Origin: Isoetes taiwanensis
Lineage: Eukaryota > Streptophyta > Lycopodiopsida > Isoetales > Isoetaceae
Direction: 5' to 3'
DNA length: 64,000 nt
Assembly: GCA_021234155.1 (NCBI GenBank)
Contig: JAJEKV010000094.1
Span: forward strand, 312,284-376,283
Each line of letters starts with the position of its first letter. Position 1 is the stretch's first letter. Positions 8,777 to 34,586 of the stretch are shown here, one piece after another. The translations under genes and the position numbers were made by a program. Below the pieces are notes generated by a model, which saw nothing but the letters and a program-made list of their open reading frames with translations, was not told the DNA's origin and searched no databases.

Positions 8777-8829
8777 AGGCCTTTGAGGCCTCCCATAGAC
8801 ATAATACACTTTCTTTCTTTCTTTCTTTC
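8777..8829 (+). repeat. LINE 3' tail: hairpin plus (CTTT)n
   Basis: AGGCCTTTGAGGCCT forms a 5-bp stem with loop TTTGA. It is followed by CCCATAGACATAATACA and then five CTTT units. The second LINE (59.2 kb) has the same order: short hairpin, an ATAATA-like link, then a microsatellite. This marks the 3' boundary of the element. Confidence 0.7.
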
Positions 8830-8839
8830 ACGATCTTCA

Positions 8840-13616: not shown

Positions 13617-14075
13617 TTTGTAGACAAGTCGTGGTGAGAAAAGTGATGGAAAACTTCACATTCTTGTGGGCGTGTTGCAGACCTTGTACTTCTTCCTGTA
13701 GCAGGAGAAGCTACAAATGGTGGGGGCAGTCTCCTTCGAAACACCTGTTGTGGTGCAGCATCTGCAGCTTCTGGTGATGGTATAAAAGGAGGTGGTAGCC
13801 TATTGTGTACAGGTGAAGATTGAATGAAGGGAGAAGGCAACCTACTTCTTAAAGGGCTCGGTGACGGTTGGAAAGGTGGTGGCAGTCTGTTGTGTGTTGG
13901 ACTTAGAGAATCGTCTAGAAGTGACAAAGATGTTGTTGAGGCAGGAGATGAGGAAGCCTGGACACCAGGCAAAAATACATGTTTATCAAGAATTTCCTCT
14001 GATGTAGAGGAACTAGGCACAAGAAAAGGTGGTGGAAGTCTGTTCTGGATGCAGTTAACCATCTTCAACAACGGG
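13617..14075 (-). pseudogene. Element A proline-rich gene (RLPPPF repeats), truncated
   Basis: The minus-strand frame carries at least five copies of a hexapeptide-like motif: NRLPPPF three times, SRLPSPF and RRLPPPF, separated by Ser/Pro/Ala-rich linkers. I do not know this protein. In element B the equivalent divergent gene begins with similar proline motifs (FTPP, LPPPIHF, RRLPP) and continues into a DUF7869-type domain, so this is probably the N-terminal exon of such a protein. Its downstream part is missing: the exon runs straight into the end of the inverted-repeat element at 13616. The open frame extends to 13565 within that element. No start codon can be fixed; an internal Met lies at about 14062. 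Confidence 0.5.
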
Positions 14076-14106
14076 AAATAGTAGAGAGAGGGACACAACT
14101 TCTGCA

Positions 14107-14740
14107 AGTTTGCTATTTGAGAATAAGAAGTGTCAACCCAAGGAGAAGACTGCTATTCCGGAATACACGTTAGCAGAAAGTTTGAACCACACGTTTTCGA
14201 TTTACATAGAATTAAGGAAGTGTCCATGAGTGACCTTTAAAAGGAAATTTTTTGGCGTTCAGTTGTGTATTCCGGATTCGACGCTCTAGCCGTTCGCATC
14301 CAGCGCATTCGAACTTCTTCTGCAGGAACTTATTCCGCTTTGCATAGCGCCAAGCATGGAGAGGTAAGGGGAAAAAGTACAATGTACGGGTTTGCAAAAG
14401 TGTTGTTTAGGTAGAAGCCAAAAGTGTATTCCGGAATACATTTTGGCCTTTTGTAAGTAGCCAAAATACACTTTGGCTACTATCGACAAGCCAAAGTGTA
14501 TTCCGAAATACACCTCGGCTTAACCTAAAAGCCAAGGTGTATTCCGGAATACACTTTGGCCTTTCAGTAGCTCTCTTTTCACTACAAAAAACGTAAATTT
14601 AGTGCAAATTTAGCTTTTCTTTTAGCTCAAACAGACTACGCTTTGTGTGTTTTAATCTAGATGTTTGTCATTTTTATTCCGGAATATACTTTTCTGTTTC
14701 TTTTCACTAGTTCTAATGTAGTTAGCCACTGTGATTTTGC
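14107..14740. promoter_or_regulatory. Element A divergent spacer with ATTCCGGAAT palindromes
   Basis: Between the two divergent genes, TGTATTCCGGAATACA or close variants occur near 14153, 14269, 14426, 14497, 14538 and 14675. Several are joined by CTTTGGC/GCCAAAG arms, so adjacent copies make longer inverted repeats. The same palindrome recurs in the introns of the ParB-methyltransferase gene (near 16122, 16181, 16468, 16527, 17236 and 17262) and is not seen in its exons. A shared bidirectional promoter and protein-binding sites are likely. Both roles are inferred. Confidence 0.7.
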
Positions 14741-15133
14741 AGGCAAGAACAGAGTGTCCCTAAGCCGAAGAGAACCATCAAGATCACTAGTAGAAAACCT
14801 GCATCGGAACAAGGACAGGAGACTGCTACGCCACAAATTTACGAGAATTTCCAAATGCAGTGGTTCGTTACACGAGGCTTCGCAGGAAAGTACAGCAACA
14901 TAACTTTCCTGTACGTTTGTCGAAGCTCAGAACAAAAAAGATATGATGACTCTGAGTTCGAGTGTATGGGCTCAATACAGCACATGGAACCTGTTGCTGG
15001 GTAGTTCAAGCAACAGGCAAAATTGTCCTTCCGGACATCACAAGGCTTCATCATCGTCAATGCAGCTTACTTCAAGTTGGTCAACGTGTAACCTCAATGA
15101 CTTTACAAGTACTGCGCCCACTACATAAACAAG

Positions 15134-16108
15134 TTGGCGTTGTCCACTATTCTTGGGATGGTTTCAAGCAGCAGAAGTGAAGCACTAGACTACAATGCTT
15201 CTGAAGATGAAGAAGGGCGTGGAGAAAGCAGTAGTGAATCTGGTGGTAAAGATGTCGACGCTGAGTTCGTGGAATCGGAACCTGAAGCATCACCACCACC
15301 ACCAAACAAGCAAAGACAGACTGTGACTGCTAAGGAGCCAAAAAAAAGAAAAATCGTGCAACTTGCAATAGAGAAAACACCTCAGGAATCTAGCAAAAAG
15401 GCAAAAGGAAAGGGCAAGCTCCCAGGAGTTGCAATAAAAGAAAAAAAAATTGACAAAACTGCAGAGAGAATGGAAGAAATAAACAAGCACAAATACGTGC
15501 AAGGTGTCATTTACCTTCCAGTCACATGCATGAAGTTGCCATCCAAGGACGAGACTGGAGAGAGGCCACTTCAAGTAAGAAAACTCCACGCTGACCACGT
15601 TAGAAACTTGAAGGACCGGATAAGGAGCAATTCAAATGCCCATGTTGCTCCAATAGTAGTGCTTACTGACAGGAATCAGTGCCTGCACCCGGCATATTAT
15701 GATAAAAAGTGTGTTGATCAGTACACGCACTATGTGCTGGGTGGAAACCACAGCTTCAAGGCACGCCAACAACTGTTTAAGGAGAAACAGAATTCTAGAT
15801 ACCTCTCTGTTCTCTGTGTGGTGTATTGCAGCCTGACTGACGAAGAGGCAAAGATAGTGGCCAATACATATAATGCTGATAACGAGTACAAACTCAAAAT
15901 GAGTTTTGTTAACAAAATAAGATTTATGCACAGAGAGTACTTAATTTTTAAGGAAAATTATGGTGAAGACCTTAAGAAACCTGCGCCATCTCTGGAGCTA
16001 AAGGAAGCGTGCGCAATAGAGTGCTGCCTCAAATATGATGAAGCAAATAAGAGGCACTCCTTAATCAGCCACGACAATTGGTTTCAACTCGCCTTCAGGG
16101 ATGGCAGG
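15134..16108 (+). CDS. Exon encoding the ParB-like domain (element A)
   Basis: The exon is open for about 325 codons. After an acidic, Ser-rich start come PPPPNKQ, the basic cluster KEPKKRKIVQ (like a monopartite nuclear signal) and a Lys-rich linker. The folded part starts near VQGVIYLPVTCMKL. It continues through RPLQVRKLHADHVRNLKDRI and HVAPIVVLTDR to YTHYVLGGNHSFKARQQLF. GGNHSFKAR matches the ParB/Srx-type signature G-x-H-R-x-x-A. A helical segment (MHREYLIFKENYGEDLKK) follows. The exon ends at a GTAAG donor after codons for DGR. Element B has the same blocks on the minus strand, for example VRVLQVRKLYAAHVAILKQR. Confidence 0.75.
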
Positions 16109-16771
16109 GTAAGAACTTTTGTATTCTGGAATAGCCCTTGCTCTTAAGTATTTTGTTTTTTCTTCATGGAAACTTAGTATTGTGTATTCCAGAATATAGT
16201 AAGCTGATTTTAACTTGTTTTGGTGCAGATTTGGGACTTGCAAAATGAAATTTTTACTGCATTTGAGCGCGAGGAACTAAAAAGCAAAGGGAAAGCCTCT
16301 GAAAAGAAAAAAGGCACAGACGTGTCAAAAAAGGAAATGACAATTACAGTTTGGAGAGAGCTGCAGGGCTTTACCGACACCGCCATACTTGAAAGAGTAC
16401 TCCCGAAGGTGGTGAATAAGGAGTTCACCTTCGAAGAGATGTCCAAAGGATTGCACAAGTAAGCTTAGTGTATTCCGGAATACGTTAATGTCTTCTGCTT
16501 GATTTTTTCGAATCTTCTAGCTCCAGTGTATTCCGGAATACGCAATGTGTTTATATGTTTTTTGTTAATTAGCCAAAAGAACGTTGCATGCCAGACATGC
16601 TTGATGGAACAACTGAATGTGAATCATGGGAAAGGTACAAGGAGCTCTACCCGGTGGCCACTTCAGATGAGCGTATCATACAATATGCTCCTAATTTTGA
16701 AGGTTGGGTATATTTTCTACTTTGTCGACTTTCGTTTTTTCTTCAGCTAATTGTCCATTAATTAACTTCAA

Positions 16772-17897
16772 ATGCATGTGCAAAACAAGGAAAAAAACAA
16801 AGACATTTCTGAAGGTTTCATGCACCTTCTGAAGCTTGTTCATGAGGAACGGACCTTGGCTGACAGGAGGCAATTAGCGATTGAACCTTCCGACTATAAG
16901 AAGTTTGCCTTGTTCGACCAAGACAATCTTTTTTCAATCATTCAAGGCGACTGTACTAAGTTGGTGGGAACTATCAAGCCCCAGAATTTTACCCTAGTTA
17001 TTGCGGACATACCTTATGGGTTCAAAATCAAGGACAGCCGTTATGACGACCTACCTTTCAGGAACTCCGAGTTCAATAGTTTTAAAGATGGTATAAAGCA
17101 GATAACAACGGCTAAACACCAGCGGTTGGTGGTGTTTCACTCCAGTATACAAGCAGGGATGGTCGAAACCAGCTTTAAAAATTATTTCGGATCCCCTGCT
17201 CAAGCAGGCTATGAGAATTTAGTTTGGTGAGTCTTTATTCTGGAATACACCTTCTTTCTAATGCTATTCTGGAATAGTAAACTTCTTTCTTAGTTGCTAG
17301 ATTGCTAACTACACTTCTCTTTCAAAGGTACAAAACAAATATAAATTACCATGCTGGAGGCCCCATGTTGTTAAGCAAGCCCGAGGTTGTTAAGCAAGGT
17401 AGAATACCCGCATGTTGCCTACTTGACCTTCGACGGCAAGAGGACAATGGAGCACTTCAACACTTCTGGATGCTCTGACTTTTCCAATGTCTTAGAGTTT
17501 CCAGCAATGTTGCAGAAGCTGCAGGACCCAAGCGCAGGGTAGAATCGTCAATCACTATCAGAAGCCCCAGAAGCTAATCAACCATCTTATTGACATGTTT
17601 TCACGTCAAGAAGACTGGATACTTGATGCTTTCTCGGGCTCTGGTATTACCATCGCCTGCGCACTTAAGAAGGGCCGCAACTGTGAGACAGTGGATATAG
17701 ATAAGGAGGTCGTGAACTTCATTAAGATGAGATTGGCTGCACTGCCTAGTTTACCAGACAAGAATCAAGAGCTAGGTGCCAAATCCTCATCTGATTTCGC
17801 CAAAATGACATCATCAAAAATACAACTGCCTTTTGCTAGCTCCACAGAGGACGAGGTCACTTTTGCTGAAGGATGTGGCTCTAGTAGTGGAAATTGA
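16772..17897 (+). pseudogene. DNA methyltransferase catalytic exons (element A)
   Basis: Motif IV comes first (VIADIPYGFKIKDSRYDD; DIPY is a variant of the DPPY/SPPY catalytic motif). RLVVFHSSIQAGMVE and, across an intron (17227-17327, GTGAGT...AAAG), WYKTNINYHAGGP follow. Then come LEFPAMLQKLQD, VNHYQKPQKLINHLIDMF and motif I, ILDAFSGSGITIACALKKGR (F-x-G-x-G, AdoMet binding), with VDIDKEV after it. The order IV before I fits beta-type N4-cytosine or N6-adenine enzymes acting on DNA. Two frameshifts lie between 17.39 and 17.55 kb. Which base is methylated cannot be told from the motif. Confidence 0.8.
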
Positions 17898-18029
17898 AGA
17901 CAACATCTAAAGCGTATATTAAATCACCTGAGCAGGAGAAGCCGGTTCAGGAGAACATTGCAACTACAAGCACACACCATGAGGAAGATTATGATATTGA
18001 TCTTTGACTCATTGTGTGAAACATTTTTC

Positions 18030-18385
18030 AGATTAAAATCTTCTAAAACTGATATTGAAAATTTAATTTATTATTATTTATTCCCATCAATTTTGGTATT
18101 TTTTAGGTCTTGCTTGTCTAGATTACACAGTCAACTGTAAAGTTTGCTCTTTTCAGCTAACAAGTGACAGAAAAGGAAACAATTAGGAATATTATGATTT
18201 TGAAGTTACACTTGTTGTCTGTAGCATTCTAGTGTTAACATTAACTTTGCCTTCAAAACTGATGTATTCAAAATTCAGATTAATGCTAACGTCATTAATT
18301 CTTTTAAACTAAGATGTTTCTGAGGTCTTCATTTCATGGATTGTATAGTCAGCTGTAAATTTCGTTCTTTTTAGCTGTGACATTA
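18030..18385 (+). repeat. Imperfect tandem duplication downstream of element A gene
   Basis: The stretch from TCTAAAACTGATATTG through AGTCAACTGTAAAG (about 18030-18165) is repeated in diverged form at about 18250-18385 (TTCAAAACTGATG through AGTCAGCTGTAAAT). No gene is seen here. Confidence 0.6.
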
Positions 18386-18527
18386 CATAGAACGAAAGTG
18401 TACACCTACTGGGAAGCTAAAATGCAAGAGAAAAAAAGTTTACCCTTACAAGATCCTTTACCTCGGCCAAAACGTTCACTTCTAGGAGCATGCCATGTTT
18501 TTTTAGGGCATCTTTGAAACGGAAGTT

Positions 18528-20480
18528 GTGCAACACTCCCGTTTCAAATGCAACCTTGTTCCCTCTATAAAATGCCTTTCCCTACATTTAAAAGGACACA
18601 ACAGAAACTGTTTCAGAATCACATCCGTAGACACTGGAATTTCTCTGCTAGACAGGTATTTCCTACACCTGCTTACTTCCAGATTTGACCCCGTTACCTA
18701 CATCGAGTACAATAAACAATATACTACTACATGTAGACCGTACATTGTCCTTAAGCCCACCGATCATCTAGAGCAGAAACCCGCAGGCGCAACCCAAAAC
18801 ATCATCCACGAGAGAACAAGAGGACAGTTAATCTGTAGAATACAACTACTAGTTTCAAAAGTTGGAGAGCCTTTCTACCTTAGACTCATCTTACTCCACA
18901 AAGCCGCATGATCTTAGAACAAACTCAATCCATGATGAAAAATAGTACGAAACATATCAGAAAACCGCCCAGGCTATGGGACTAATTGCACCAGCAACCA
19001 AAACCATAGCAGTAATGCAGCAGGCAATCTCATGCCTACAGACTCCATCACAACTATGATTCCTATCCGCGGTTCTAATACGAGATTCCGAACCAGCACT
19101 CCAACTATGGGAAACATTTCAAGACCAGATGATCGTTGACTTCGTACAACAATACCTAGAAAACCAATTAGCTGCCATCAATTAAAGCCTTCTCACCATC
19201 AACATCTTAAACGAGCATGGAACCAGCGCTGAAGCTTTTGGTCTGCCTTCACACAACATCCCATACAGAGAAATACAGAATGAACTCAGCAAATTCCCCG
19301 ACCATGAAGAGTATCTTACAAAGAGCTCAATTATGTTCGTGAACCAAAACCAGACCTCAATCTACACATATATATATATATGCAAACTTATCAACAACAA
19401 AAATTCTCCAGCCCCAATCTTCGTGTATGGAAAAGCCAGAACAGGAAAAATATACGTACTCAGTGCCATCTGTCTCTACGTACAAGGACTCAATCAAATA
19501 ATCTTACCACGCGCCACTATGGCATTAGCATCTCTACAGTACCTCGTCGGAAGAATTTCACACTCTCCTTTTCAAATACTCGTCATCGACAACAATATTG
19601 GAATCTATTCACTACTCGAACCACATTCTCCAAGGGCCCTATTGATCAGCACCGCAACGGCAATCATATAGGACGAATTTCCCATGCAAACAGAGCAGTC
19701 ATAAAGGCAGTTGATATCCTTCTACAAAACATAGCAGGCGTAGCCAGCCCCTTCGGAGGCAAGCTACTTATAGCAGCTGGTGATTTTAGACAGATCGCTC
19801 CCGTTGTCCAACGAGGAGGAAAAACAGCAATAATAAACTCATCTATCATCTCTTCCCACCTATGAAACCACTTCAAAATCCTAGAGCTTACTAAACCAGT
19901 AAGAAACGCAACTGATCTAGAACTCATACGATTCGTTGATGAAATCGGAGAGGGCCATCTACTCAATGACATTTTGCTAACACTATTCAAGATAACAACC
20001 AAAATAGGGGACACCGTCAACTTCTTATCTAACACATACATATTACTAACACCTATCCTATATGAGAGGAGAGCATTCCTATCTCCCAAGAACATCCCCG
20101 TCGACGACTTCAACATCGAAATCATATGAATGATTGCTTAGCAAACTATAGAAGCTACTTTAGCATCTACAGACTCACAAAAAAATGACCAAACCATCGA
20201 GGACCATCCAATGGCAATGATAAACTTCCTCAGCGGCTACAAACACCCAGTGCTTCCAAACATGAACTCCAATTAAAGACCAACACCGTATGCCACATCA
20301 CAAAAACATTGGACAAGGACAGAGGACTCATAAAAAACGCAAGGATCATGTATGCTCAATGCACACCAAATTCGTGACTGTCAAAGTTCTAACAGACCAA
20401 CTACGGCACGTGGGAAACATGCACCCCATATCCCGAGTTGACTTCTTCCACCAACCAGACAACTGGCCCTGGACAATTAT
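18528..20480 (+). pseudogene. Relic of Helitron helicase (Pif1-like)
   Basis: Successive frames rebuild a Helitron helicase. First is a pre-helicase block with VSKVGEPFYLRLILLHKAA (18.84-18.91 kb), then SEPALQLWETFQDQMIVDFV (19.1 kb) and EHGTSAEAFGLPSHNIPYRE. Walker A is IFVYGKARTGKIY (degenerate GxxGxGKT, 19.42 kb), followed by RISHSPFQI. Walker B is DEFPMQ (19.67 kb), then SPFGGKLLIAAGDFRQIAPV (19.75-19.81 kb) and NHFKILELTKPVRNATDLEL. Trp codons before DEFPM and NHFKIL are now TAG and TGA. The Rep domain and both termini were not found, so this is an internal fragment of an autonomous element. Confidence 0.85.
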
Positions 20481-20712
20481 ACTCTTAGATGTTTACTAAC
20501 CATATGGGACAAAGGATAGTTATAAGGCTTATGATTCCCACAAGAAAATATGATAGAAATATGCTTAAGCTGAAAAGCAAAGCTACTATCATTGTCATCA
20601 GCAAGCAGGAAACTAGCAAGTCCATCTTTCTTGAACGACATCTAATGCAGTGTGAAACCAGAGGGAAGAGAAGGAAGAACTCCAATCAAAATAACTTCAT
20701 TTGCAAAAACTA

Positions 20713-21000
20713 GAATTCGAGATAACTTGATCTAAGTGGTATTTAATTAAAAGTGGGACTCATTCCATTCCCATTTTTCGAAACCACGTTAATTTACACG
20801 AAAAGCACCGGCCGAAAACTATCCTTAATTGATTTTTGTCTAGAACTCTTGCATCCCGAGCTTTCCTCAGGTTTTCCCCGGATAGCGAGTCGAGAACAAA
20901 GAACAATGCAAAAGCAAAACAAAGGAAATTCATTAAAGATTGAAACCAAAGCTCTAGTTGAAAAAAAAATTTTATTAATAAATTGAATAGATACAATGTA
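20713..21000. other. No gene recognised
   Basis: AT-rich, with short open frames on both strands. It contains GCGAGTCGAGAA near 20886, a half-site of the element C palindromes, so element C may begin about here. Confidence 0.4.
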
Positions 21001-21561
21001 TTTTACATGGGGCCCAGGGGACCATGGCGATCTTCTTTGTCACTCTGATTACATCATCTTGGTAGGTGGTCCACCTTAGGGGATTAACTTTGCGGCGCCT
21101 TCTTCTGCCATTTGTAAGCCTTGGAGGCAACACGAAGAGTGTGGAATGCCTCACGATGGAGTGCCTCGCGGAACTCCCGTACGACCATCCACGGGCTTCT
21201 CCACTTTCGCCTCCATGACTTTTCATCGAATATGCTCCTTCCCCAACCTCAGTGGATATTATGCAATGCTTGCAAGATGCTTTTTGAGCTTCTGGGGCTG
21301 TCTCAAATTTCTTGGCGTGTTCTTTATCCCAGAGGGTGTGCATAACATCCCAATTCACGAAACAACCTTATTCAAAGGCCGGGCAAAGTGTAAACGTGGC
21401 GGGGATGCGATGCCGAGAACGGTATTTCTTACGCCTTGGCGGGGATCATCTGCTTTGGTGGTCTCACGAGATGCACGAGCGGGATACGTCTTTGGGTTAG
21501 GATCGTGCAGAACAACGCAAAGGAGAGTCTGATGATTAACAATTACGGTGCCATTAGTCAA
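20984..21561 (-). other. Uncharacterised minus-strand coding-like segment
   Basis: Two overlapping minus-strand frames (21358-20975 and 21561-21355) read as ordinary protein with a basic C-terminal part (NGRRRRRKVNPLRWTTYQDD). I do not recognise them. They lie downstream of the FCP1-like segment on the same strand and may be its last exons or a separate gene of element C. Confidence 0.3.
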
Positions 21562-21584
21562 AGCGAAGAAAAGAATGTTGAAAT

Positions 21585-21940
21585 CAAATTACAATGGAGA
21601 ACATTCATTCCATATAACTGCATCATCCAATGGCGTGGGAAGTAGTGTCTTTCTAGACTTCGCGAAGTCGAGAAAGGCGAAAAAAAGTTAAAATGCGACC
21701 ATTCTCATTAGAATATAAGTGCATCCAATCACACGGGAAGCATACAAATGGTTTAGATCCAGCGAGACAAGCGGTGCCTTTCTGTTCGCGTCGAGAAAAG
21801 GCCCAAAACAATGTACAACCATTATCATAATAGATTGTGGCTGCATCCGATCCTGACAAACAAACATACAAATGGTCTCATCAACGGGACAAGCATGCCT
21901 TTCTCGACTCGTTGGTCGAAATAAAAACTTCGATATACAA
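21585..21940 (+). repeat. Diverged 118-bp tandem repeat, three units
   Basis: Units start near 21585, 21692 and 21810. Each runs from a CATTCTCATTAG-like start through a GCATCCRATC core and ATACAAATGGT to TGCCTTTCTCGAC-like ends. Each unit ends with a form of the element C palindrome (for example GACTTCGCGAAGTCGAGAAA near 21658), degraded in the last two. Confidence 0.65.
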
Positions 21941-22039
21941 GTATATTCATTACAAAATGTAGTACATTTGTTCATGTTTGTTTAAATATTCACTGGTTGA
22001 CTATCGGCGGCCGGTCACTCTTCTTGATCACCAAAATAT

Positions 22040-22860
22040 TTGCCGTCCATAGCTTTCATCATGCTCTGCTCTGGATCCGGGTTCCGTGAGGCTCGGATAG
22101 TTTCTAATCACATCGGCGACAAGAATGGCAAAGCGGGATTCGCCAAGCGGACAAAGTCGAAAGACAACCACCTATCCATCTCATACTCTTGGTCGATATA
22201 CCTTAGCAAGGATTGTATTTTCAGTTATGATAACACTTGTAGGCGAGTCGTCTATGATCGGCGTGTTGTGTTTGCCATAGTCCGGGAATTGCTCATAAAC
22301 CCTGTCCAACCTTTTCACCATAATATGCTTCCCCTTTGTGATGGCTTGGATCGAGGTAAACACATGCTTTCGACCCTTTTGTTTCCCAAGCGAACTTGAA
22401 CTTCAAAGCTGGAAGGCCGAGAACACCAAGAACATTGACAATATTTTCTTTTGCCATACAAGACCATATGGCCGCCGAATCCCCATTCGGGCACCATTCA
22501 ACAATTTCCTTTGCTCTAGCCTCGGATACCGCGATTTTATGCTTTCCGTTTTTTTCGGGATCTGCGAGGTGTTAAGCTCGAGGGGCGTCTTTATCGTGGT
22601 ATCTTTGCAGCTAATACTCCATTGGCGTCAAATATTACAAAAGCTTGGCGGGACCATCGGATCCGGTTGGAGTTTGGCTCGACCATATTTCGGTTCATCC
22701 GGGATCCATATCGCGGGATCATTATTTTTTCAGGTCCTTTCTTGCTGCCCGCAGTGTCTTGCTCTTGATTGTCTTTGGGGTTTGCATTGTCCTCCTTGCG
22801 ACTAGATACTGTCAATGATCCGGAGTTGTTGGCATCGATCTCCCTGAAATGATGAGAGAT
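22040..22860 (-). pseudogene. FCP1/NIF-type (HAD) phosphatase-like domain, element C
   Basis: Read on the minus strand, SRQAFVIFDANGVLAAK (22.6 kb) matches the FCP1-family catalytic start (DLNGVL in many plant members). It is followed in another frame by RAKEIVEWCPN and AAIWSCMAKENIVNVLGVLG, then LKFKFAWETKG. A third frame gives VKRLDRVYEQFPDYGKHNT and IIDDSPTSVI. IDDSP is the second signature. Family members remove phosphate from phosphoproteins such as the RNA polymerase II tail. At least two frameshifts break it. It lies just 3' of the methyltransferase-like exon at 22971-23186, with an intron full of TCGAGA palindromes between, so both may be one fused gene. Confidence 0.7.
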
Positions 22861-22864
22861 GTCA

Positions 22865-22950
22865 GAAAGAAAACGAGTTTTCTCGACTCGCGAGTCGAGA
22901 ATGGAAAAAAGTTAGTCCCAAAAGGTTTCTCGACTCGCGAGTCGAGAAAC
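22865..22950 (+). repeat. Element C palindrome pair
   Basis: TTCTCGACTCGCGAGTCGAGAA occurs twice, near 22879 and 22928, in the presumed intron between the FCP1-like and methyltransferase-like exons. The same family recurs at 21.66, 36.1-36.6 and 39.8 kb. Confidence 0.85.
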
Positions 22951-22970
22951 ATCGAGAGAGAAAAGTGAAA

Positions 22971-23186
22971 TCACCTCAATCTCAGATTCTCAATAATGTG
23001 TTCGGTAGCATTCTGGTCTAAACCTTCGACATTCTCGTCTCCGTCAGGTTTCTCTCCCTCGCTCCCAGCTTTGTCTTCGTCATCGTCGTCCTTACTGCTT
23101 CCATTTGTCTTCCTCCCTTTGAAATGCTCATGAAGCAGATCCAGGTATGACCGAATGTAGGTTTCATTCCATAAAGCATAAACAAG
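22971..23186 (-). pseudogene. Element C methyltransferase-like gene, 3' half of split exon
   Basis: The minus-strand frame begins at the left inverted repeat of element B and reads LVYALWNETYIRSYLDLLHE, then HFKGRK and an acidic tail (KDDDDEDK). It is the continuation of the exon at 34587-34810, which ends QIVCEWYMNGLFSQGAMNK. Joined, the two resemble methyltransferase motif I and the acidic strand that follows it. The reading frame is kept across the 11.4 kb insertion. Confidence 0.55.
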
Positions 23187-23210
23187 GTTTAAAATGAAAC
23201 GCACTTATTT
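23187..23210 (+). repeat. Element B left terminal inverted repeat
   Basis: 24 bp, exactly the reverse complement of 34563-34586. Followed inward by AGAAGTGCGTTT, which pairs with the repeat's own AAACGCACTT. Confidence 0.8.
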
Positions 23211-23930
23211 AAGAAGTGCGTTTGAAAGATTCCTTTATAAAAATTGGAAACTTGAAAAAAATGGACAAAATAGGGAGCAAAATAGATTGTTGAGCAAATA
23301 GCATTCGAAATACCCCAAAAAAAGCAACATTTTTGAAGCCTTTTCATTTTTTAAAAGGGCAAAAAAAAAAAAGCTTGTTTTGAGGAGAAAGACATTACAT
23401 TTAAAAACTCATTAAGTATTTGTTGTTGAAAATAGAAGGAAATATAGTTTTGTGTTTTTGCAAGCTTAATATAAGTACTAAGAAAATCAAACATAGAAAA
23501 GAAAAAGAGTCTGAAAATCATGAATCAAAAAGAATTGTTCTAATTAAGCATTGTTGAAGAGAAAAAGTTTTTAGTTGAAATCTTCATCAAAATATATTAA
23601 AATTAAGTAACACATAGATTACAATGAAAGATAGTTTAAAATCTTTCTGCGTATAAATTTATCACGGAGGTGGCTCTTCCATCCACGGGGACTCTCTCTC
23701 CCCCCATAGATCGGTCTCTTTGCGAGGTTATAATAGCGAGACGCCCCTCGATTCCAATAGTGCAGTGCAGTGTTTCTCGGCTCGGGCACCACAGGCTCCA
23801 GATCGACGAACTCCACCTCCTCATTTCTTCTTCCGTATTAAGTGGAGGTTTGGATTTTGCAATATGTGCCTTTTACATCGCCGGCACCATTTTTGCTCCC
23901 AATTCCTCGTTTTCATCGGAAAGGATTCAC
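23211..23930. other. Element B left subterminal region, no gene
   Basis: A-rich, gene-free sequence, then short overlapping frames (23.62-23.95 kb) without a family match. It probably holds the 3' end of the element B methyltransferase gene. Confidence 0.4.
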
Positions 23931-24386
23931 AAGAGCTTATCCTGGTCCCGATGAAACTTATTTTGTCGGTCTATGTCGGACGGAACAACATTAAGCCCCT
24001 TAAAAGGCAAACTCTTCAATGGTGCACGAGCGCAGAAAATCGTCTAAGATCCAGTCCCTGTGGCGAAAACCATCATATCAAATTATTTATAAGTCGCTGT
24101 GGCTTCTGATAATGGGACACCACAGCGCCTTGTCGCTGTGGGTCTCTTAATTTTTGCAAAACCGCCGGGAACTGAAACGCATTGCAGGGAGGAGTCTTTT
24201 CATTCTGCGTATTAAAGTGAACCATGGTTTTTGGCGTCAAAAAACCCATGTGAAAGTGCTCGAAACAACTTACTAGCGCGGACCACCACCATGACCCTTA
24301 ACGTTTGTTTTAAGCACCCGCTAAACACAACAATGAAATATTAGTAAAATAAAAACAAGGAAAATAAGTTAGCTCAGTAGTGTGGC

Positions 24387-24545
24387 GGTATAAATTTATA
24401 CCAGGGTTGCCTTGCGGTATAAATTTATACCAGGGTTGCCTTGCGGTATAAATTTATACCGCGGCTGCAAACCGTATAAATTTATACAGACATTGCCTTG
24501 CTATATAAATTTAAACCTTAGGGTTGTGGTATAAATTTATACCGT
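24387..24545 (+). repeat. Element B palindromes, array 1 (intron)
   Basis: Six copies of GGTATAAATTTATACC or variants at about 29-bp spacing. The first three form a perfect 29-bp tandem unit with AGGGTTGCCTTGC. They lie in the presumed intron between the methyltransferase motif IV exon and the next exon. Confidence 0.9.
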
Positions 24546-25616
24546 GGAGTTACTAAAAAGAAAAGCGTTAAATGTTAAGCTTACCAAATGGGTTTTCAAA
24601 GCGGCATTACAGGCGACTCCCATAGGTTTAAGCAGGACATTGTTTGTAGGTCCGAATGGAAAATGATGACCCTCCGGTTAGCGGATAAGGTGACTTCCTT
24701 CGGGCCTTCAAAAAGAGTGGACTTGCGATGCGTGAAAACCTCCCCTCGTCAAAAGCGGCTGTCGCTTAATTTTGAAACCATAGGGAATATCGCAATGCAT
24801 AATGTGAAGTTCTGCTTCTCCAAAAAGTGTCCCCACCTCGTCTGGATCACCCTCAACAACTCTTGTTTTGCAGTTTGACCAAACGTTGTAAATCTTTCAT
24901 AAGAAGTGTCAAAGGCGCTGGTGGCGACCTCCTTTCCATTGGATTGCCTTAAGTCTCCGCCTCTTCCTTGGCCCTCACGAACCAGGGTTTAAAAAATCCA
25001 AATGGAGCCCTTTTTCTTGTTACGTAAGAATATTGTGAGAAAGGCACAAACCGCAGAGGAACATATTTTTAGCAAAACTTACCCGACCACTAAAGTTAAC
25101 GGCGTGCTCTCTAATAATACTATCGATTGGGTACAACTTGGGTAGAAGCTTGCACTCCTCCGTCCTCAAGGTTTAGCTTTGCTTCATTAACTTCGGCCTG
25201 GCGGGGTAACAATGTCTTCGGCTGCAAAGAGAAACATGTTGTAAGACCGAGAAAAATGTAGAAGAAAAGGCGGCATTGCAAATGTGGCTTCGTCTTAGCT
25301 TCCTTGGCCATTTTGGTCTAATGTAAATTCCTTGGCCCGCGACTTTTCCAAAGGCGAACAAAATTTCTTTGCTTTTTAATCCACAATCGCTGCGTCCGGG
25401 TACAATGCTCATATTTTTACTTTTAATTCTCCACCCTTTTTGGTTTTTCCTATAGCGGGCTGGCTTGCTCTTTAAACTCACCATCTTGAACATACAAAAA
25501 ATTCTTTCTTGAAGATCCCACACACTGTAAATGGACAAACGCCATTAGTTTAGTGTTGCTTAAGCGTAAGAGAATATGTTGCGATCTACTTTCTAAATGC
25601 GCTGGTGTGTAGTCCG

Positions 25617-25980
25617 CGGTATAAATTTATCGCCGTCCACGGACCTGGTATAAATTTATCTGCGACTGAATCGCGGTATAAATTTTTCTGCCGTGCCTGG
25701 TCGTGATATAAATTTATCCGTGCCCATTTCTGATATAAATTTATCACCGTGCCCTCCACCGGTATAAATTTATCGCTACGACTAGGCCGCGGTATAAATT
25801 TATACGCGACTAGGGAGCGGTATAAATTTATCGCGTCTTGGGGCCAAGATATAAATTTATCCCGCTGACTATTAGTCAGCGGTATAAATTTATCTGCGTT
25901 CCGGAACTGCGATAAAATTTATCACCGTCCCTAGTCGCTGCATATAAATTATCTTGTACCCACGGTATAAATTTATCACG
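25617..25980 (+). repeat. Element B palindromes, array 2 (intron)
   Basis: Thirteen copies of GGTATAAATTTATC or variants spaced about 25-35 bp, separated by unrelated GC-rich spacers. They fill the intron between the YGEDFKK exon and the VWDLQ exon. One more copy lies near 27031 in the next intron. Confidence 0.9.
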
Positions 25981-27551
25981 AAGTGCAAGGCACTTGTAAC
26001 CACGCTAAACATACTACAAAACATAGAAAAGAAGCGACTTCTTGCTTGACCATCTCGAATGCCGGTGAAAGTAGTTATCGTGTTGCTTTTCGCCATAATG
26101 GGCTTCTTATCATAGTCATAGGAGGCGACACTTTCATCGCACCTTGGGCTTCTCAGCTCCTGCGGCTTGTTCTTTTGCTTTTTAAAATCCTCTCCATACA
26201 TTTGTTTAAATTCCACGTACTCACGATTGCATGAAAGCGGATCTTGTCTATTAAACTCATTTTTAATCTGAAGTCATTGTCGAGATTATGACTCCGCGGA
26301 ATGACTTTTGCTTCTTCATCTGTTACACCAACGTATATATGTGCTTCTCACGCTCTTCCACGCCGTTCACGGCTTTCCTCTTTTTGCTAGTTCTTTCCTT
26401 GCCTTGTAACTATGTGTGCCTCCAAGAACGTGGTATGTGTAATCTTCAAGTCGACCTTCTTGTAATCTTTTAGTTGGTTGCACTGACTCCTGTCCACCAT
26501 AACAACTAGTGGCGACACATGGGCATGAGGATTTCTTCTCATTCTTTGTTTCAGTATAGCCACATGTGCCGCATACAGCTTCCGGACCTGTAGCACTCTG
26601 ACCCCATCTTCATTTTTAGGTGGCCTCTTAATGGTGCTCAATGTCAAAGAAATAGTTTGCTTTAGCAGTTTAGTGTCATTCACCCGCTTGAGAATAGCAC
26701 TTGATTTATCTGCAGGCTTCACAACAATATCTGCTCCGGGCCTTCTGAAGAGCTTCTGTTGACTCCTCTATAGTCAAAGCCTTTGTGCCTCTAGATTTCT
26801 TTTTTGTAGGAGCCTGTGTATCTACTACGAGGGAATGCTTTCTACCCTTTCCCTTTGTTACCACTGGTTCCTCTTCCTCTTCTTCTTCTACTTCCTCGTC
26901 CTTCTCTTCAAACTCTTCGATAGGAGTCGGGTACCAGAGACCTTTGACCAACTTTGTTTCTTCGCAAAGCACAACTGACATTAAAATGTCCACTATATCC
27001 TGTAATGCAGGGTTAAGTTAGGAAGATGACGGTATAAATTTATCGCGTAAAAGACACTAAACAATACTTACATGGCCACTCTTGTAATTGTCAGCCACGT
27101 ACTCTTGCACATCTTTGGGTTTGCACATGCTTATTCGAAGCATTTTACTTTCAAGAACGTAGAAGACTTCCCCCTTGTCATGCATGCACTTCATTAAGAT
27201 TTCATCATCGACCTCTGTAGCAATAAGGTTGACAATTTGTGGTGGGGTAATAATCGTCACTCTTGTACTTGCCCTTCCCGATTGATGACACAAGTAAAGG
27301 TGCGCCTCGATGGGTTTGCTCTCTCTTGCACCCATTTGGGCGTACCACATCCGGTTTCGGTTCGTATGTGCGTGGCTCTATTGGTGCGACCTTTGATGGT
27401 GGCCCTTGTTTACAAACGATCTTGGGGCTGGAAAAAGCATAAAGAGGCCATTTTTATGCAAGAAACAGAACCTTTTTCGACCTTTTGTACCATAAAAACA
27501 GTAAAAATAGAGGCGAAAAGAGCATAAAATCTACACTAAATTATCACTTTA

Positions 27552-30038
27552 CTAGTTACGGTGCCCAGCGTTGCTGGGCATAATTGGTAACCTGCAAATG
27601 TTGAAAACTTGCTCGGCATAATTTGGCAACTTGTAAATGTTGGAAACTTGCCTTGTTGGGAGCATATTTTATGTTGTCTTTAATTTGTGTCCCAACTTAT
27701 TTCTCGAGCTTATTCAACGAACATTTTTCACCTAACTATTTGCATGTCTTTTAATTCATTAGCAACATAAACATACTTATTAACACTACTTGATGCAATC
27801 GAAGGGCCCTTTGGGCATCTCCAAGTGTTTGTTTATTGGGTATCAACACTTAAAAACATCATCAAAGATGTTTCTTTGAAACAACTATTGTATATGCAAG
27901 GATGGTTTTTTTAACAACTATTTATATTTGTACATGCAATAACTATCTTTGACATCGTTTTTGCACAATATTCCATGTCATTCTAGCTTTGTTACATGAA
28001 CTTGGAGTCTCTCTTATAATGTTTGTTCTCCTAACAATTCAATATAGTGTCTATTTTCTACATATATTCCTATTAGGGGATTAACATTTTACAGTTGACA
28101 AAAATATGAATTACAAAAAATATGAATTACACTTCTGGCATAGGCCAATGCCGATAATAATTTTACTCTATGGAAAGACCTACTAATCTGCTTATTTTAT
28201 GGAGTGCATGTAGATCTAGACAAATACGTTGCAAGTTTAGCCCATAGTTTAGCCCATCTTTTTCTGTAACATGTCTATGCCTTGCAATTTTGTAAGCTTT
28301 ATACATGATACAACAAATTGACACTGCAAGGCACCTTTGGGTTAGTTCAAATCTCTGTTTCTTCATACATGCCCTCTCACATTGGGCAATGCCATTACAT
28401 GCCCTCTCACATTGGGCAATGCCATTGCAGAATATGACATATACCAGGGACATCTAGACAACTGTGTTTTGCTGCTATTGTAGAGGGTAAATACTGTAAG
28501 TGGGATTGAAACTCCTTATCCAATGAAGCTAAATATGTTAAAACGCTGGCAAAGCCTGACATGCTTCAATAAAAGGTATATGTTAGAAAGTGAACTTTTA
28601 TGCTATCTTACATGTTTGAATATAAGCTACGCAAACCAAATCCAAAGCAAATAAACAGATCCTTTTTTGAAACCAAAAGATTTTTTGCTTCATCAAAAAA
28701 CATGTCCCCTCCCATGCATGTTCTGAGGGAAGGCTGAACATGTGGCCAGTTTGAAGACTGTTGCAGAAATTCACAATCATATACCAGCAAATTCAATAAA
28801 AAAACAACTGATGCGAATTTTCCTAACCAGGCTTTGTGCACTTAAACTTCTTGAAAATGCATGGTCACCACCAGCTCCACAGTTGCGAGGGCTGGTCCCT
28901 GGCGTGCTCCCTGAAGATGTTGCACACTGCTCTAGAACTGGATCCAGCATATGGCCTCTTGTTTCTGAAACCAAGTCCTGGTTGGCAGTAGAAGAACTTG
29001 GTGACTCCACCTCTAATTCTGCTATGGAGCTAGCAGCATCTGAGCAGGTTGGAACACCTCCTGACTGAGTGGTACCTCGAGATGCCTTGGCTGTAAACAT
29101 GTACTTTATTCCTTAGTGTTTTAAACCTTATACTTCTGTCACATGTCAGAATATGAATTTTCCATTGGAAATTCACCTGATGCAGACATATATAGCAGGA
29201 TAATAGAATCCAGCGGAAGCTCTTCACAAGCAGTAGCTAAGACCTGTGAATGGAAAAGATATAATCCATCAAGAAATGGAAAGTAAAACAGCAAAGCATC
29301 TAACCAAAATAGGGTCTTACCAATAATAACCTCGGTATACTTGAACGATAGAGAATATGCTTTTCAGAATTTGGTGGCAAAGTGGGATCCTTTATTTCAT
29401 CGACAATGTTTGTTCTTTGAAGTGTCATTTCAGGCAAATAATTTTGAGCATTCTCTGGAGACTTTGAGCAGATAAAATCAGGATGCAGATAGCTAGAGCA
29501 GATAGTTGAAGATTTGCCCTTTTGCAACATAGATCTAGAGCAGGATGGACGGTTTCCAGATGCGATAGAGACTTCAGAGCTTGGATTTGGAAGCCGATGG
29601 CTTCTTACATTGTCACTGGTTAGTAAAAGGAAAATAGATGCCATCTAACCTTTGTAAAGAGGAAATAGGCTTGAGTGCTACAGCCGCAACCGGCATAGCT
29701 AAAGCGCGGGGACGCCCAACAAAACCCTGCACAGAAGAGGGGGGCTGAACCTGATGGGTTGGATCTGACCATCGGATTGCTACAGGCCATTCTTTGCTTT
29801 GGTGTTGTATGTCAAGCTCTATAGAATATCTTGCCAGAGATCCAACGACCTCTTCTGAGCCTTCGATTTTTAGGAGTTCCAGATGCATCTTGCTTGTAAC
29901 GCTCCCTTCAGCAGGGAGTTCTATTGCGGGCAAGCCCTAAAAATCCTGACCAGTCGAAATTACTAAGATGGATCCCAGCCATCCAATCTAGGGCTGGATC
30001 CAAATCCAGGAATTACAGCAAAACATTATAATATAAAA
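27552..30038 (-). mobile_element. Helitron H2 (non-autonomous, 2.49 kb)
   Basis: The 3' end on the minus strand is hairpin CCCAGCAACGCTGGG, CACCGTAA, CTAG, followed by host T. The 5' end is TTTTATATTATAATGTTTTG, a mutated form of the H3 start (TCC changed to TTT). Both H2 and H3 carry ATCCAGCCCTA within about 50 bp of this end. It lies in element B, just upstream of the ParB-methyltransferase gene. Interior open frames at 28.74-29.10 and 29.30-29.93 kb look like captured gene pieces. Confidence 0.82.
29300..29933 (-). other. Possible captured host exons inside H2
   Basis: Two minus-strand frames of ordinary protein composition abut in the Helitron. The upstream one includes LPAEGSVTSKMHLELLKIEG and SIELDIQHQSKEWPVAIRW. 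The downstream one is Ser-rich. I do not recognise the source gene. Confidence 0.3.
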
Positions 30039-30138
30039 TTTGTGTTATTTAGGCTTAAAACGCAAGAATATTACTGAAATATTAAGGTTTGCGACACTTC
30101 TTCAAGCACTAGACACCAAGATTCCAAAATGGTTCTGG

Positions 30139-31018
30139 ATCGGTATAAATTTATCTGCTGAGACGAAATGGTATAAATTTATCTGCGAACCATACGCTTC
30201 TGATCGGTATAAATTTATACCGCGGTGCTTTCGGCGGTATAAATTTATCTGGATGTTCGAGACACGCGATCGGTATAAATTTATCTGCAAGAATTTTCGG
30301 GTATAAATTATACCGATTGGTCTGGACCGGTATAAATTTATACCGCCGAGCACTGCTTGTTACTTTTATCCGATTCAGAGAATTATATCGGTATAAATTT
30401 ATATCGATCGCGTGTTCGAACAGGCGGTATAAATTTATCTCTGGCTGATTATGAAGCCCGGTATAAATTTATACCCATTCAGTAACCATATCGGTACTCA
30501 ATTTATACCGAAGCGTGGTGAACGCAGATAAATTTATACCGCTAGATTCGAGCGGTATAAATTTATACCGATCGAGAACCATATCGGTATAAATTTATAC
30601 CGCAGCCGCCACACTCCAGCGGGTGATTAAAACAAAAGAGAAACTAGAACAATGCGGGTAGTAGACTTCACGCGGCCATGACCCGATAGACCCGCTGCGT
30701 ATAGGCGTTCGCCCAGCAAATAGGGGGTATAAAGCGCCTGCTTGGCGCCGACTCCGGTGGAAATATATATAGAAATAGAGGTGGTGGGCGCTGGCTTAAG
30801 TACCTCTCGCTAAGTGCGCTTCATATAGCTTCTCCATAAAGTTTTCAATACAAGTGTCAATGCGTGAGTTTTAGGTATAAATTTATCTCCTTTCGTTCTA
30901 TGTTGCCCTCCTCAGTATAAATTTATACCATCTCAGGTATAAATTTATCTCTAATCTGCGCCTTAAGTTTTTCTTCCCTGTATAAATTTATACCAACTCT
31001 AATATAAATTTATCTTAC
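30139..31018. promoter_or_regulatory. Element B divergent spacer with 19 palindromes
   Basis: Fourteen copies of CGGTATAAATTTATACCG or half-degenerate forms lie in 30139-30604 at about 28-37 bp spacing, and five more in 30871-31017. The block sits between the methyltransferase gene (minus, left, beyond H2) and the proline-rich/DUF7869 gene (plus, starting near 31022). This is the same position as the ATTCCGGAAT palindromes of element A. Likely a bidirectional control region or transposase-binding array, by inference. Confidence 0.8.
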
Positions 31019-31021
31019 CGT

Positions 31022-33950
31022 ATGGCTCGAGAGAAAAGCTGCGAGCCTCCAACTCTTGTTCGCGGGGCTTCCTCTGCAATGGCTTTCACACCTCCTCAAC
31101 GGACACCGAGAAGTAGCCACGAATATTCTACATCCAGGCATTTCAACACCCACTCACGGTTGAGTTTACTCCGGCAAGACCACCTCGGCTTCCACCACCC
31201 GGTTCAATTTACTCCACCACACCACGCTCACGAGCGTCATGCGCCCCCACCAATGCGTTTCACCCCACCTCGGGCTAGAGAGGTCGGACTACCTCCTCCA
31301 ATTCATTTTAGTAACATTAAGCCCATAGTCCACCGTAGGCTCCCTCCCGCGGAGGCAAATCACACCAACTCCATCCATTTAAGCTAAATGGTACTACAAC
31401 AAATGGGGGCTTGATCGGCACCGAACTATCTGTGTTCTCACGACGCCCGGGGAGTCCAACTTCGTCCACCGGCCTCGATTACTTTTTCGAGAGAGAGGAA
31501 AGCACCTCCCCGGGCCTTGCCCACATCAAACCTCTCAAAGATCTACAAATTACACCTCATGTTGATCTCTCGGGGAAGAAACACCTCATGTTGATGTCTC
31601 CGGGGAGGGACCTACCAAAGCCACAAGACTCCATGTTGAATTCAAAGCCCCGCAAGTAAAAATCTTAAAGCGTAACTTACACAAGGCGGCATGTACAACC
31701 GTTAGAAGAAAGAAACTCATGGGCGAGGCTCACTTGCGGGCAACACATACAAAAGCACTTGTTGTTCTCAACGTTGTTTGCTTAAGATTGGACTAAAGGG
31801 AATTGAGGTTGCCGTTGATAGTTCTGAGTTCAATGACTCACCGCTAGACCAAAGGGGCTACTTAGCCTTCAATATTAGGCGGATGATGGTGAGAAGTTTA
31901 CTTACGGTGGTGGCCACACGTCACAATCAAAGCGGCCTTCAAATTGATTCATGCTTTAAGCGTGACGGCGACTTGACGCTGAAGAAAAGGCTTGACAAGA
32001 ATCCGGGCATCAATGACTCTTGCCATTCGGGAGGCATAACGAATTCATGCTCTTCAATGTGTTTCTGGATGGAAGGTTTCTTTAAGGAGTCTTGTGAGAA
32101 ACTCCCCTAACGACCCTATGTACCACTTGGTGACAATTTCCACGAAACAAGAAGTCTCGATAATTATAAGGAGATGTGTGTTGAAATTTGGAGAGCGGCT
32201 TTATGCCTTTACTCTTACTTTCACGTGCTTTCTGGAAAAAGAGTTTTCTCGTGTAGCCATTCCTAGAAAGCATAGGATGTCTGTTTGTGCTACATGCTCA
32301 CGAATTAAAAGCTTCGAGACAAAATGCAAGGACACTTCACACTAAAAGTAAGCTTCGGGGCGTGTTCTTGCCTAGTTCTACTTAAAGTAGGTTCTTTCTA
32401 AACATGTTTTCCTTTCCCGGATGCATTGAAGGAGAAACCCGAACAAAACCGCCTGAGAACAACAATCTTTGGAAAGGAGAAAATTGACAAAACATAGGAA
32501 AAAGAAAGACTTTGGAACAACCACTCAACTACATATCGGTTGTTATTGATGGAATGGACCGAAGAAGACCACCCTACCACATTTTGTCAATGTGCCTAAG
32601 GATCTTTCTTGAAGAAGATTTCATACATCGCATGTTGTTGGTGCTATGGTATTTAATGGAAAACTATCTTGCAAGGCATTTTTTTGAATTATCAAACATT
32701 CATCTTTGATCCAAATCTCACTATCACAATATTGAATAAGCTTCTTTCCAATCTAGAACATATCTGCCCGGGTTACGTATCTTCGACTAGATAACCACGA
32801 CAAGGGGAAAATAAGAATCGGCGTTGTTTGCTTACTTGTGCTATGCTAGTAGAAACAAATCTTCAAGAAGGTGAAGATTGGTTTCTGCTTGTTGGTCATA
32901 CACCGCGACCAAATTGATCGGATGTTGATGGGTTCTCTAAGCGTCTTGCTTTCGAAAAAAAAAAGCTCTAAGCACCTTACCCATGATTGAGGTCATCAAG
33001 ATTCCTACAATCCCTCGTCCGGACATCGAGTTATTGGAAGAAACTTATGATTTCAAGGAATGGATTTTTGAAAAAGAGATCAACTAGGTCAACGTGCTAT
33101 TGAGCCCTTGAGAAAACATTACATTCCAAAGCTCGAGATCAAAATTTCACTTGTAGATGGCAAGGCCATCTTACAAGGAAAGAAATATGCCACATCCTTG
33201 CGATGGCGACCCGGCACAGTATTCAATTCATTACCAACATCCCCAATACTAGTTCCATGCTCTCTGCCCAGAGCAAATGCCTCTAAAAAGCTTGAAAGAA
33301 ATCACAAAGAGTAAAAAAGGAGGGAAGAGCATTTGACTCAAATAAATCATTGGATTGTATTGAGACAAGTATTCATCTGCTCTAACCACTTTGGGGGCCC
33401 GGATGCTTTATGGTGGCCTCAATTTTTTTTCGACAGCGTGACATGTTGCAAGCTTCATTAAAGGTCGAAGACCGGTTATATTCAGCGGCCATCTAGGCAA
33501 ACCCTCCTCAGCAAGTTGAGAATCAAGAGGAACATGTAGAGATATTGGCTAGCTTCAGGATGAAGATGACGAGAGTCATGTACACCGGCCCTAGGCATAC
33601 AAAGACAACAAGTTGCTTTCGAGTATCACGGTTCAGTTCCTCGAGATTGAAAAAGGAATGCTCATAGTTGTCCCAAATGATAATGATGAATCTGGGAGGC
33701 CATTACGCTAGCTAAAAATCTTGGAGGTAACAAGAGAGGATGGAATTCCCACTCAATTAAAAGTGCACTGGATGAGAACGACTGCTGCCAATGCTTTCAG
33801 TGGGAGTTATACTTTGGAGATGGTAAAAACAGGAGTGGGAAAGAGAGCAAAGTCCAAAGCAAAAATCTGGCTGTCATAGATCTATCCTGAAGTGAAGGTT
33901 CTTGCATATGACTTTGTTCATTTCTGTACGCTAATAAGTTACGTATGGTC
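31022..33950 (+). pseudogene. Element B proline-rich + DUF7869-type (transposase-like) gene
   Basis: The first segment (31022-31387) repeats FTPP, MRFTPPR and LPPPIHF and matches the RLPPPF gene of element A in style. Blocks of the DUF7869-type protein follow: IPRKHRMSVCATCSRIKSFE (32.26 kb), NYISVVIDGMD (32.52 kb), FELSNIHL, KVKIGF then (frameshifted) LLVGHT and DQIDRM (32.87-32.93 kb). After those come ETYDFKEWIF, ISLVDGKAILQGKKYATSLR (33.15 kb), and FLEIEKGMLIVVPNDNDESG (33.65 kb) with LKVHWMRTTAANAF. The gene at 45.7-51.7 kb has the same order (IIHDKMDQ, GFMMVGHTHDDID, EGYFVLVRPDDEDRP). DUF7869 proteins are thought to be transposase-derived. Multiple frameshifts and stops make it inactive. 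Confidence 0.72.
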
Positions 33951-34562
33951 ACTCAAACTTTAATAAGGTCAGCATGTGGATTAGACAAACAAGCCAAAAA
34001 GGTGGCCAAAAAAGATGATGATGAAGACTCACTTGTAGACAGTGAGGAAGAAGATCGCTTCAGTACATCCGGTCTTTGAGAGTGAAGCCGAGGATGAAGG
34101 CTCGAGTGATCGGGGAATAAATGAGTCGAGGGATGAGATGCATCCCCGATCTTGCTGCAAAATGTAAGTTTGTCCGATGACTCGAACATGTAAAGAACAG
34201 AAAGTGCAGGTGATGATTGTCTGTCAAAATATCCTATACTTTTGACAATTTTGTTCATAATTTTGTACAATTTTCACAACCTTGAATATATCACTTCTTT
34301 GTCACTCTACTACCCTTGCTATTTTTTTTATTGCCCCTTTTTTGCTACACTTTATAAAAGTAACTATTTTTTGTTCTAGTTTAGGAGGATGAAAATTGCT
34401 ATTTAAAATTTTTGCACGAAAGTTATGTTCAATCAACCCCTCAAAAATGGTACCTAAATTACTTAAATTGTCACACCTGTCACAAAAAAATCTTAAAAAT
34501 GGACTTTTTTAAGGGAATTTTAGGGAATCTTTCAAAGATTCCTTTTGAAGTGCGTTTCCAGC
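33950..34562. other. Element B right subterminal region, no gene
   Basis: AT-rich sequence between the end of the DUF7869-type gene and the right inverted repeat. A minus-strand frame at 33953-34270 is Ser-rich and probably spurious. Confidence 0.45.
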
Positions 34563-34586
34563 AAATAAGTGCGTTTCATTTTAAAC
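34563..34586 (-). repeat. Element B right terminal inverted repeat
   Basis: 24 bp, exactly the reverse complement of 23187-23210. A second GAAACGCACTT lies inward in direct orientation. Confidence 0.8.

Follow-up and report, generated by a model that had tools for sequence, protein, structure and literature searches.

Known systems and the Isoetes elements

Transposons carrying a fusion of a ParB-like domain and a DNA methyltransferase (MTase) are already known. In Sola1-1_Ec32 of the brown alga Ectocarpus (21.5 kb; Dinatale et al. 2025, PMC12477816), a gene with ParB-like and N4/N6 MTase parts is described on the strand opposite the transposase, and the same arrangement was found in two elements, A and B, of a 64 kb stretch of Isoetes taiwanensis DNA (contig JAJEKV010000094.1, positions 312,284 to 376,283; hereafter the window), in which this gene is paired with a gene of DUF7869 type. 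The available text of the Ectocarpus paper cites green and red algal cases of the same kind of protein, and its authors suggest that a protein of this kind binds, and puts a mark on, the transposon that encodes it. Unlike the Isoetes elements, Sola1-1_Ec32 is presented, in the main text as far as available, without the words palindrome and binding site; the algal suggestion of self-marking came, in that text, without cis targets, for which the plant families supply candidates, namely four palindromes whose sequence tracks the lineage of the protein and of which three are present in thousands of copies. The Ectocarpus report was the only relevant one among the matches listed for ParB-MTase transposons, and the name DUF7869 appeared in no paper of the literature searched, which largely excludes subscription papers. 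As far as these searches show, the plant families, the pairing with DUF7869 and the family-specific palindromes are new. A previous sequence-only reading of the window, made without database searches, knew of no plant DNA transposon with this gene pair, which holds for plants in the literature searched but not for a ParB-like/MTase gene opposite a transposase as such; the palindromes, the most informative part, were absent from it.

VANDAL elements, which offer a second comparison, are of the MuDR/MULE type. For VANC21 and VANC6 of Arabidopsis, different motifs are described as repeated in noncoding regions, and the proteins remove silencing from elements of the family to which they belong (Hosaka 2017, PMC5735166, available text). 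As in VANC21/VANDAL21, a transposon-encoded protein family is accompanied in Isoetes by family-specific short motifs in the elements' own noncoding DNA, in arrays that follow the encoded protein. In contrast to the VANC motif YAGTATTAY, which is non-palindromic, the motifs here are palindromes and the protein bears an MTase. Phage ParB-like/DNA methylase proteins are also alike, with a ParB_N-like stretch in an annotated DNA modification methylase (for example in Streptococcus phage Javan476, QBX28978), but these are prokaryotic and located outside transposons.

The best overall explanation of the Isoetes data, with a probability of roughly 0.6, is a self-addressing ParB-MTase of DUF7869 transposons with terminal inverted repeats (TIRs). 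If true, a transposon has adapted a bacterial enzyme, which binds and methylates DNA, to self-recognition; sequence-specific self-addressing in the VANC style would then be known from two cases, and plants would have a possible source of DNA methylation other than 5-methylcytosine (5mC).

Family-specific palindromes

The genome searched comprised 1.66 Gb in 1110 contigs. Its plant identity was borne out by 13 NAC-domain matches with E-values of at most 1e-25, when 14 prokaryotes used as controls gave none. Twelve 10 kb loci (L001-L006, L013-L018) were retrieved, nine chosen by ParB matches and three by DUF7869 matches, with open frames favoured; loci were drawn from the best 150 scored of 3283, 1855 and 9906 candidates, and do not represent a random sample. 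Families A and B are those of the window, when families C (L016-L018) and D (L024, L040) came from further copies picked by protein matches.

Each family possesses a 14 bp palindrome of its own: GTAT-TCCGGA-ATAC (GTATTCCGGAATAC) in A, GTAT-AAATTT-ATAC (GTATAAATTTATAC) in B, CTAT-GCGCGC-ATAG (CTATGCGCGCATAG) in C, and GTAT-GAATTC-ATAC (GTATGAATTCATAC) in D. All four are perfect palindromes and are built on one frame, (G/C)TAT-N6-ATA(C/G). Exact copies in the genome, with counts for the reversed control sequences in parentheses, numbered 3720 (0) for A, 12556 (17) for B, 1551 (0) for C and 64 (11) for D. Within the window, all 18 matches to the frame with a self-palindromic core were inside elements A and B, GTATTCCGGAATAC being found within A only and GTATAAATTTATAC within B only.

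An exact own-family site was present in all 35 ParB-bearing loci (A 16/16, B 12/12, C 3/3, D 4/4), with one exact D site each in L029 and L030, and exact sites across these loci were 302 of the own family and four foreign. One-mismatch foreign sites were a few more, confined to the pair B and D or to L003. This family-A locus also holds, at 8287-9632 and adjoining the element, another MTase fragment, which is of the B/D type and has B palindromes. Locus L023, which stands outside the family counts, had only the MTase end recognisable, with no ParB match, and contained none of the four palindromes.

The family label agreed with the best ParB match in 34 of the 35 loci, when queries from four families were used and self-matches left out; for L022 and L025 the match was weak, with about 49% to A. 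The exception was L024, the sole D query, which then matched B best (60%) and which pairs with L040 at 98.8%; L040, L029 and L030 match L024 at 80-99%. The D label was not blind, as it was the palindrome, alongside a ParB identity to A of 48%, that first drew attention to this family. The ParB tree, built from 17 sequences with the other 18 loci outside it, recovered the four groups and a split of B+D from A+C with support of at least 0.99, the split itself having 0.996, and the half-sites of B and D (GTATAAA and GTATGAA) are one base apart. Only 8 of 149 sites in ten loci were in coding DNA, against 74 expected, with a coding mask built from tblastn pieces that may extend into introns. The palindrome sequence accordingly follows the ParB lineage, and the sites are mostly in noncoding DNA.

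The ParB-like and methyltransferase domains

On the basis of the NCBIfam model TIGR03764, four of six family members matched ParB, with a best E-value of 5.5e-4, far below the curated cut-off of 143.75 bits for this ParB/Srx-like (ParB_N) domain. Profile-profile alignment by hhalign of 16 plant sequences with ten phage ParB domains gave a probability of 81.6 and a score of 41.75 over 91 columns (single-comparison E-value 1.1e-5), when the best of 200 column shuffles scored 21.39 and the reversed profile 10.73. The alignment is collinear with known ParB domains, and the plant segments LQVRK..HV..LK, P.VV, YVLGG.HS.KA and LTDEEAK..A...N follow one another in the ParB_N order. ParB homology of the plant domain is supported by these weak NCBIfam matches together with the profile-profile alignment. 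No relatives of the plant ParB-like part were found in viral contigs (two alignments), genome contigs or phages (ParB open reading frame (ORF) of L004), in searches with short conserved peptides or tblastn, from which distant relatives may escape.

The methylase domain proposed from the sequence was confirmed by N6_N4_Mtase (PF01555) matches in the window (17496-17897, E-value 1.9e-13) and in the A copy L004 (E-value 5.9e-17). Of 21 sources scanned, 20 contained a recognisable motif IV, D[IL]PYGF, and 11 a motif I, DAFSGSG, some of the stretches ending before motif I or carrying frameshifts; all four families were represented in both. The motif IV exon is located upstream of the motif I exon, which is the order of beta-class N4/N6 MTases. 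A CcrM-type NCBIfam match had an E-value of 1.6e-11, below the cut-off. Because of the D[IL]PY motif and the CcrM-like matches, adenine is favoured as the putative target base.

Transposon structure and gene pairing

The sequence-only reading of A and B as transposons was supported, both being members of one group of DNA transposons with TIRs. Family-A copies L001, L002, L004 and L005 were 8019-8274 bp long with shared termini, starting AACAA(G/A)..TTGC.., and seven intact-length copies measured 8.0-9.4 kb. A 4 bp target-site duplication (TSD) flanked all eight elements for which both ends were found, as in cut-and-paste type transposons: ATTC, CCTT, TTGG and AATA in family A, CATA in B of the window, GGAT in the B copy L015, and TAGA and GGAG in the C copies L016 and L018, respectively. 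This count covers elements bounded on both sides, and leaves out L003, L006, L013, L014, L017 and L040 (one or both ends missing in the stretch), element A of the window (right end only), the 4-5 kb loci (too short) and the D elements (unbounded). The length of the TSD is that of the Sola superfamily; Sola2 TSDs are given as 4 bp and AT-rich (PMC3627910, available text), when those found here are not exclusively AT-rich.

The ParB-like/MTase and DUF7869 genes were on opposite strands, directed away from a common promoter, in all 12 of the 10 kb loci, in agreement with the divergent pairing read from the window. The DUF7869 assignment was borne out by a PF25273 match at L004:6042-6959 (E-value 1.5e-43), and the copy in element B matches the L004 protein. 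The DUF7869 protein is the probable transposase of the elements, a catalytic role which its sequence suggests. The same pairing shows that the homologues are not merely isolated host genes, and a domesticated host gene was ruled out, as the gene resides inside elements with TIRs and TSDs and in many copies.

Selection was examined between the A copies L001 and L004. In the ParB/MTase exons, the nonsynonymous divergence (dN) was 0.15-0.24 with saturated synonymous sites, and in the transposase exons the ratio of nonsynonymous to synonymous divergence (dN/dS) was 0.05-0.08, showing purifying selection across a deep divergence. Both copies retain exact palindromes, when neutral DNA of that age is expected to be largely randomised.

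Proposed function and alternative explanations

In the proposed mechanism, the ParB-like part would bind the palindrome of its own family as a dimer, which the sequences make quite likely, the constant TAT..ATA frame serving as the shared contact and the variable core as the family-specific bases. The bound protein would then bring the methylase to the promoters and introns of the element, and methylation at or near the palindromes, more likely of adenine, is judged probable, if with less confidence than binding. The self-mark or the binding itself might shield promoters and introns from host silencing, or set the element's own expression, each family addressing none but its own copies, in the manner of VANC and VANDAL; this last step is tentative and made by analogy, an anti-silencing purpose being proposed because VANC21 and VANC6 are the closest working precedent. 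In its widest form, a ParB-derived domain and a parS-like palindrome would have co-diverged as a private epigenetic address that steers a bacterial-type MTase to its own family, so that rival families coexist by thousands and escape silencing independently, for which we consider the chances slightly short of even.

Several results tell against the self-addressing ParB-MTase. The Pfam ParB profile (PF02195) matched neither the window nor the family members, no ParB was among the matches of a PDB profile search up to an E-value of 10, and AlphaFold prediction of two sequences, with a pLDDT (predicted local distance difference test) of 35, was uninformative on the fold. The ParB-like claim of the sequence-only reading therefore stands on the profile-profile alignment and the weak NCBIfam matches, but failed on Pfam and on the curated thresholds. 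The GERRxR motif is the nucleotide (CTP, cytidine triphosphate)-binding, phosphate-binding box of ParB. At this position, 18 of 21 sources read GG[TN]H[ST][FY]KA, and because of this replacement a CTP sliding clamp is doubtful and unsupported. Constraint was weak in the recent B pair L015-L031 (dN/dS 0.40 and 0.61). Of the 73 single-mismatch A sites, 44 were C-to-T changes at the central CpG; this decay fits host 5mC silencing of many copies, and any protection would for that reason not be lasting. To these are added the four foreign exact sites, i.e. three B sites in L003, beside the B/D-type MTase fragment, and one in L040, the partial conservation of the flanks of A sites, and the number of independent families, only four, by which the co-variation is borne.

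The arrangement of the sites bears on the alternatives. The palindromes could be pure transcriptional operators, by which the ParB-like part controls the divergent promoter of the two genes, as a repressor or an activator, methylation being a local switch in the style of control proteins and having no anti-silencing role. The dense arrays between the divergent genes would suit such operators; however, arrays are also situated away from the promoter, in the MTase introns of A and B and, for family C, within the transposase gene, and the 6-26 sites in each of the seven intact-length elements were judged more than a simple operator needs, which makes this explanation unlikely.

Lower still in probability are DUF7869 transposase binding sites resembling subterminal repeats, in which case the MTase would serve some other purpose. 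A given transposase family goes with a given MTase family, hence the palindrome type would fit both, and in L016 and L018, both of family C, the distance between sites and an element end is 230-400 bp. In the four A elements, however, the nearest site was 1072-1963 bp from the element end, with none at less than 1 kb, and in the B copy L015 it was at 473 bp; the arrays occupy the central promoter, the MTase introns and in C the transposase gene. Moreover, a weak DUF7869-like fragment in the window (46838-47610), without recognisable ParB-MTase, is without any family palindrome, short and decayed though it is. Subterminal transposase sites are accordingly less likely than targets of the ParB-MTase.

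It is very improbable that the palindromes arose simply through local tandem duplication or as hairpin-forming DNA, with no protein to read them: site spacings do cluster at 42 bp (A), 41 bp (C) and 28-32 bp (B), which shows unit duplication and may reflect helical phase too, and the A flanks belong to the repeated unit, but in B, C and D high information content is largely limited to the site, dropping within about 2 bp of its edge, and the one frame shared by four different perfect palindromes, and the 302 own-family against four foreign exact sites, speak for a protein reading them.

Features of the window

The coordinates of both elements are collected in the table. Element B, put at 23.2-34.6 kb in the sequence-only reading, is 23181-34592. 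The coordinates proposed there for element A were close but too short, as A runs to 18560 and not to 17897. Homology of A to L001, L002 and L006 begins at 13617, with the truncation of its transposase gene near 13604-13617. A common plan of the two elements had also been proposed, and A is considered to have had the same plan as B because in A copies elsewhere the DUF7869 ORFs are immediately preceded, on their own strand, by a proline-repeat ORF. Both elements are decayed, and the genes of B match in broken pieces.

Features of elements A and B in window coordinates, with strand (a dot where unstranded) and basis or remarks.
Feature	Position	Strand	Remarks
Element A, truncated family-A copy	13617-18560	.	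Right TIR kept, left end lost inside transposase gene
A transposase, N-terminal proline-repeat (RLPPPF) part, truncated	13604-14080	-	tblastn to L004 protein, E-value 4.8e-26
A palindromes (GTATTCCGGAATAC and one-mismatch forms)	14153-14552	.	Divergent promoter region
A ParB-like/MTase gene	14822-17870	+	Matches in more than one frame
A ParB-like/MTase gene, N-domain	14822-15163	+	
A ParB-like/MTase gene, ParB-like and helical region	15230-16459	+	
A palindromes	16470-16541	.	MTase intron
A MTase motif IV exon	16778-17194	+	DIPYGF
A MTase motif I exon	17335-17870	+	DAFSGSGIT
Right TIR of A	18540-18560	-	
TSD of B	23177-23180 and 34593-34596		CATA
Element B, complete but decayed TIR transposon of family B	23181-34592	.	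Matches both ends of B copy L015; termini AACAAGGTTTAAAATGAAACG / CGTTTCATTTTAAACTTTGTT
Left TIR of B	23181-23201	+	
B ParB-like/MTase gene, decayed	23825-27377	-	tblastn with A-copy proteins and motif scan
B MTase, C-terminal part	23825-24276	-	Motif I unrecognisable
B palindrome array (GTATAAATTTATAC)	24387-24543	.	MTase intron, 28-55 bp between sites
B MTase motif IV part	24641-24907	-	CDIPYGF; motif scan
B ParB-like/MTase gene, helical part	25359-25538	-	
B palindromes, mostly one-sided variants (GGTATAAATTTATC..)	25618-25979	.	MTase intron
B ParB-like/MTase gene, ParB-like part	26025-26740	-	
B ParB-like/MTase gene, N-terminal ORF	27057-27377	-	Position and DNA match to L015
2.5 kb insertion inside B	27552-30037	.	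Absent from L013 and L015 (alignments contiguous across 27551/30038)
B palindrome array	30141-30994	.	Divergent promoter region between both genes
B transposase gene, decayed	31022-33915	+	
B transposase, proline-repeat N-terminus	31022-31387	+	
B transposase, conserved N-region	31626-32312	+	
B transposase, DUF7869	32457-33212	+	tblastn to L004 protein, E-value 2e-23
B transposase, C-terminal region	33562-33915	+	
Right TIR of B	34572-34592	-	

In the second intronic and the promoter array of element B, many sites are one-sided (GGTATAAATTTATC, then T or G), and these variants look as if one half-site was converted along the array. At the position of the insertion in B, L014 contains about 2.3 kb, for which no DNA match to that insertion was listed. 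Between the two elements, at 19186-19865, ORFs resemble by eye a decayed PIF1/Helitron-type helicase.

A separate 20 bp palindrome, TCTCGACTCGCGAGTCGAGA, had 3786 exact copies in the genome, when the reversed control had 0. In the window it is located twice just left of element B (22881-22947) and also at 39827. Five exact copies each were found in L051 (3815-4917) and L052 (3831-4979), in the middle of a 1.1 kb repeat that gave no match to ParB, MTase or DUF7869. The repeat is probably a non-autonomous element of another system, and the genome may accordingly contain another system of this palindrome style.

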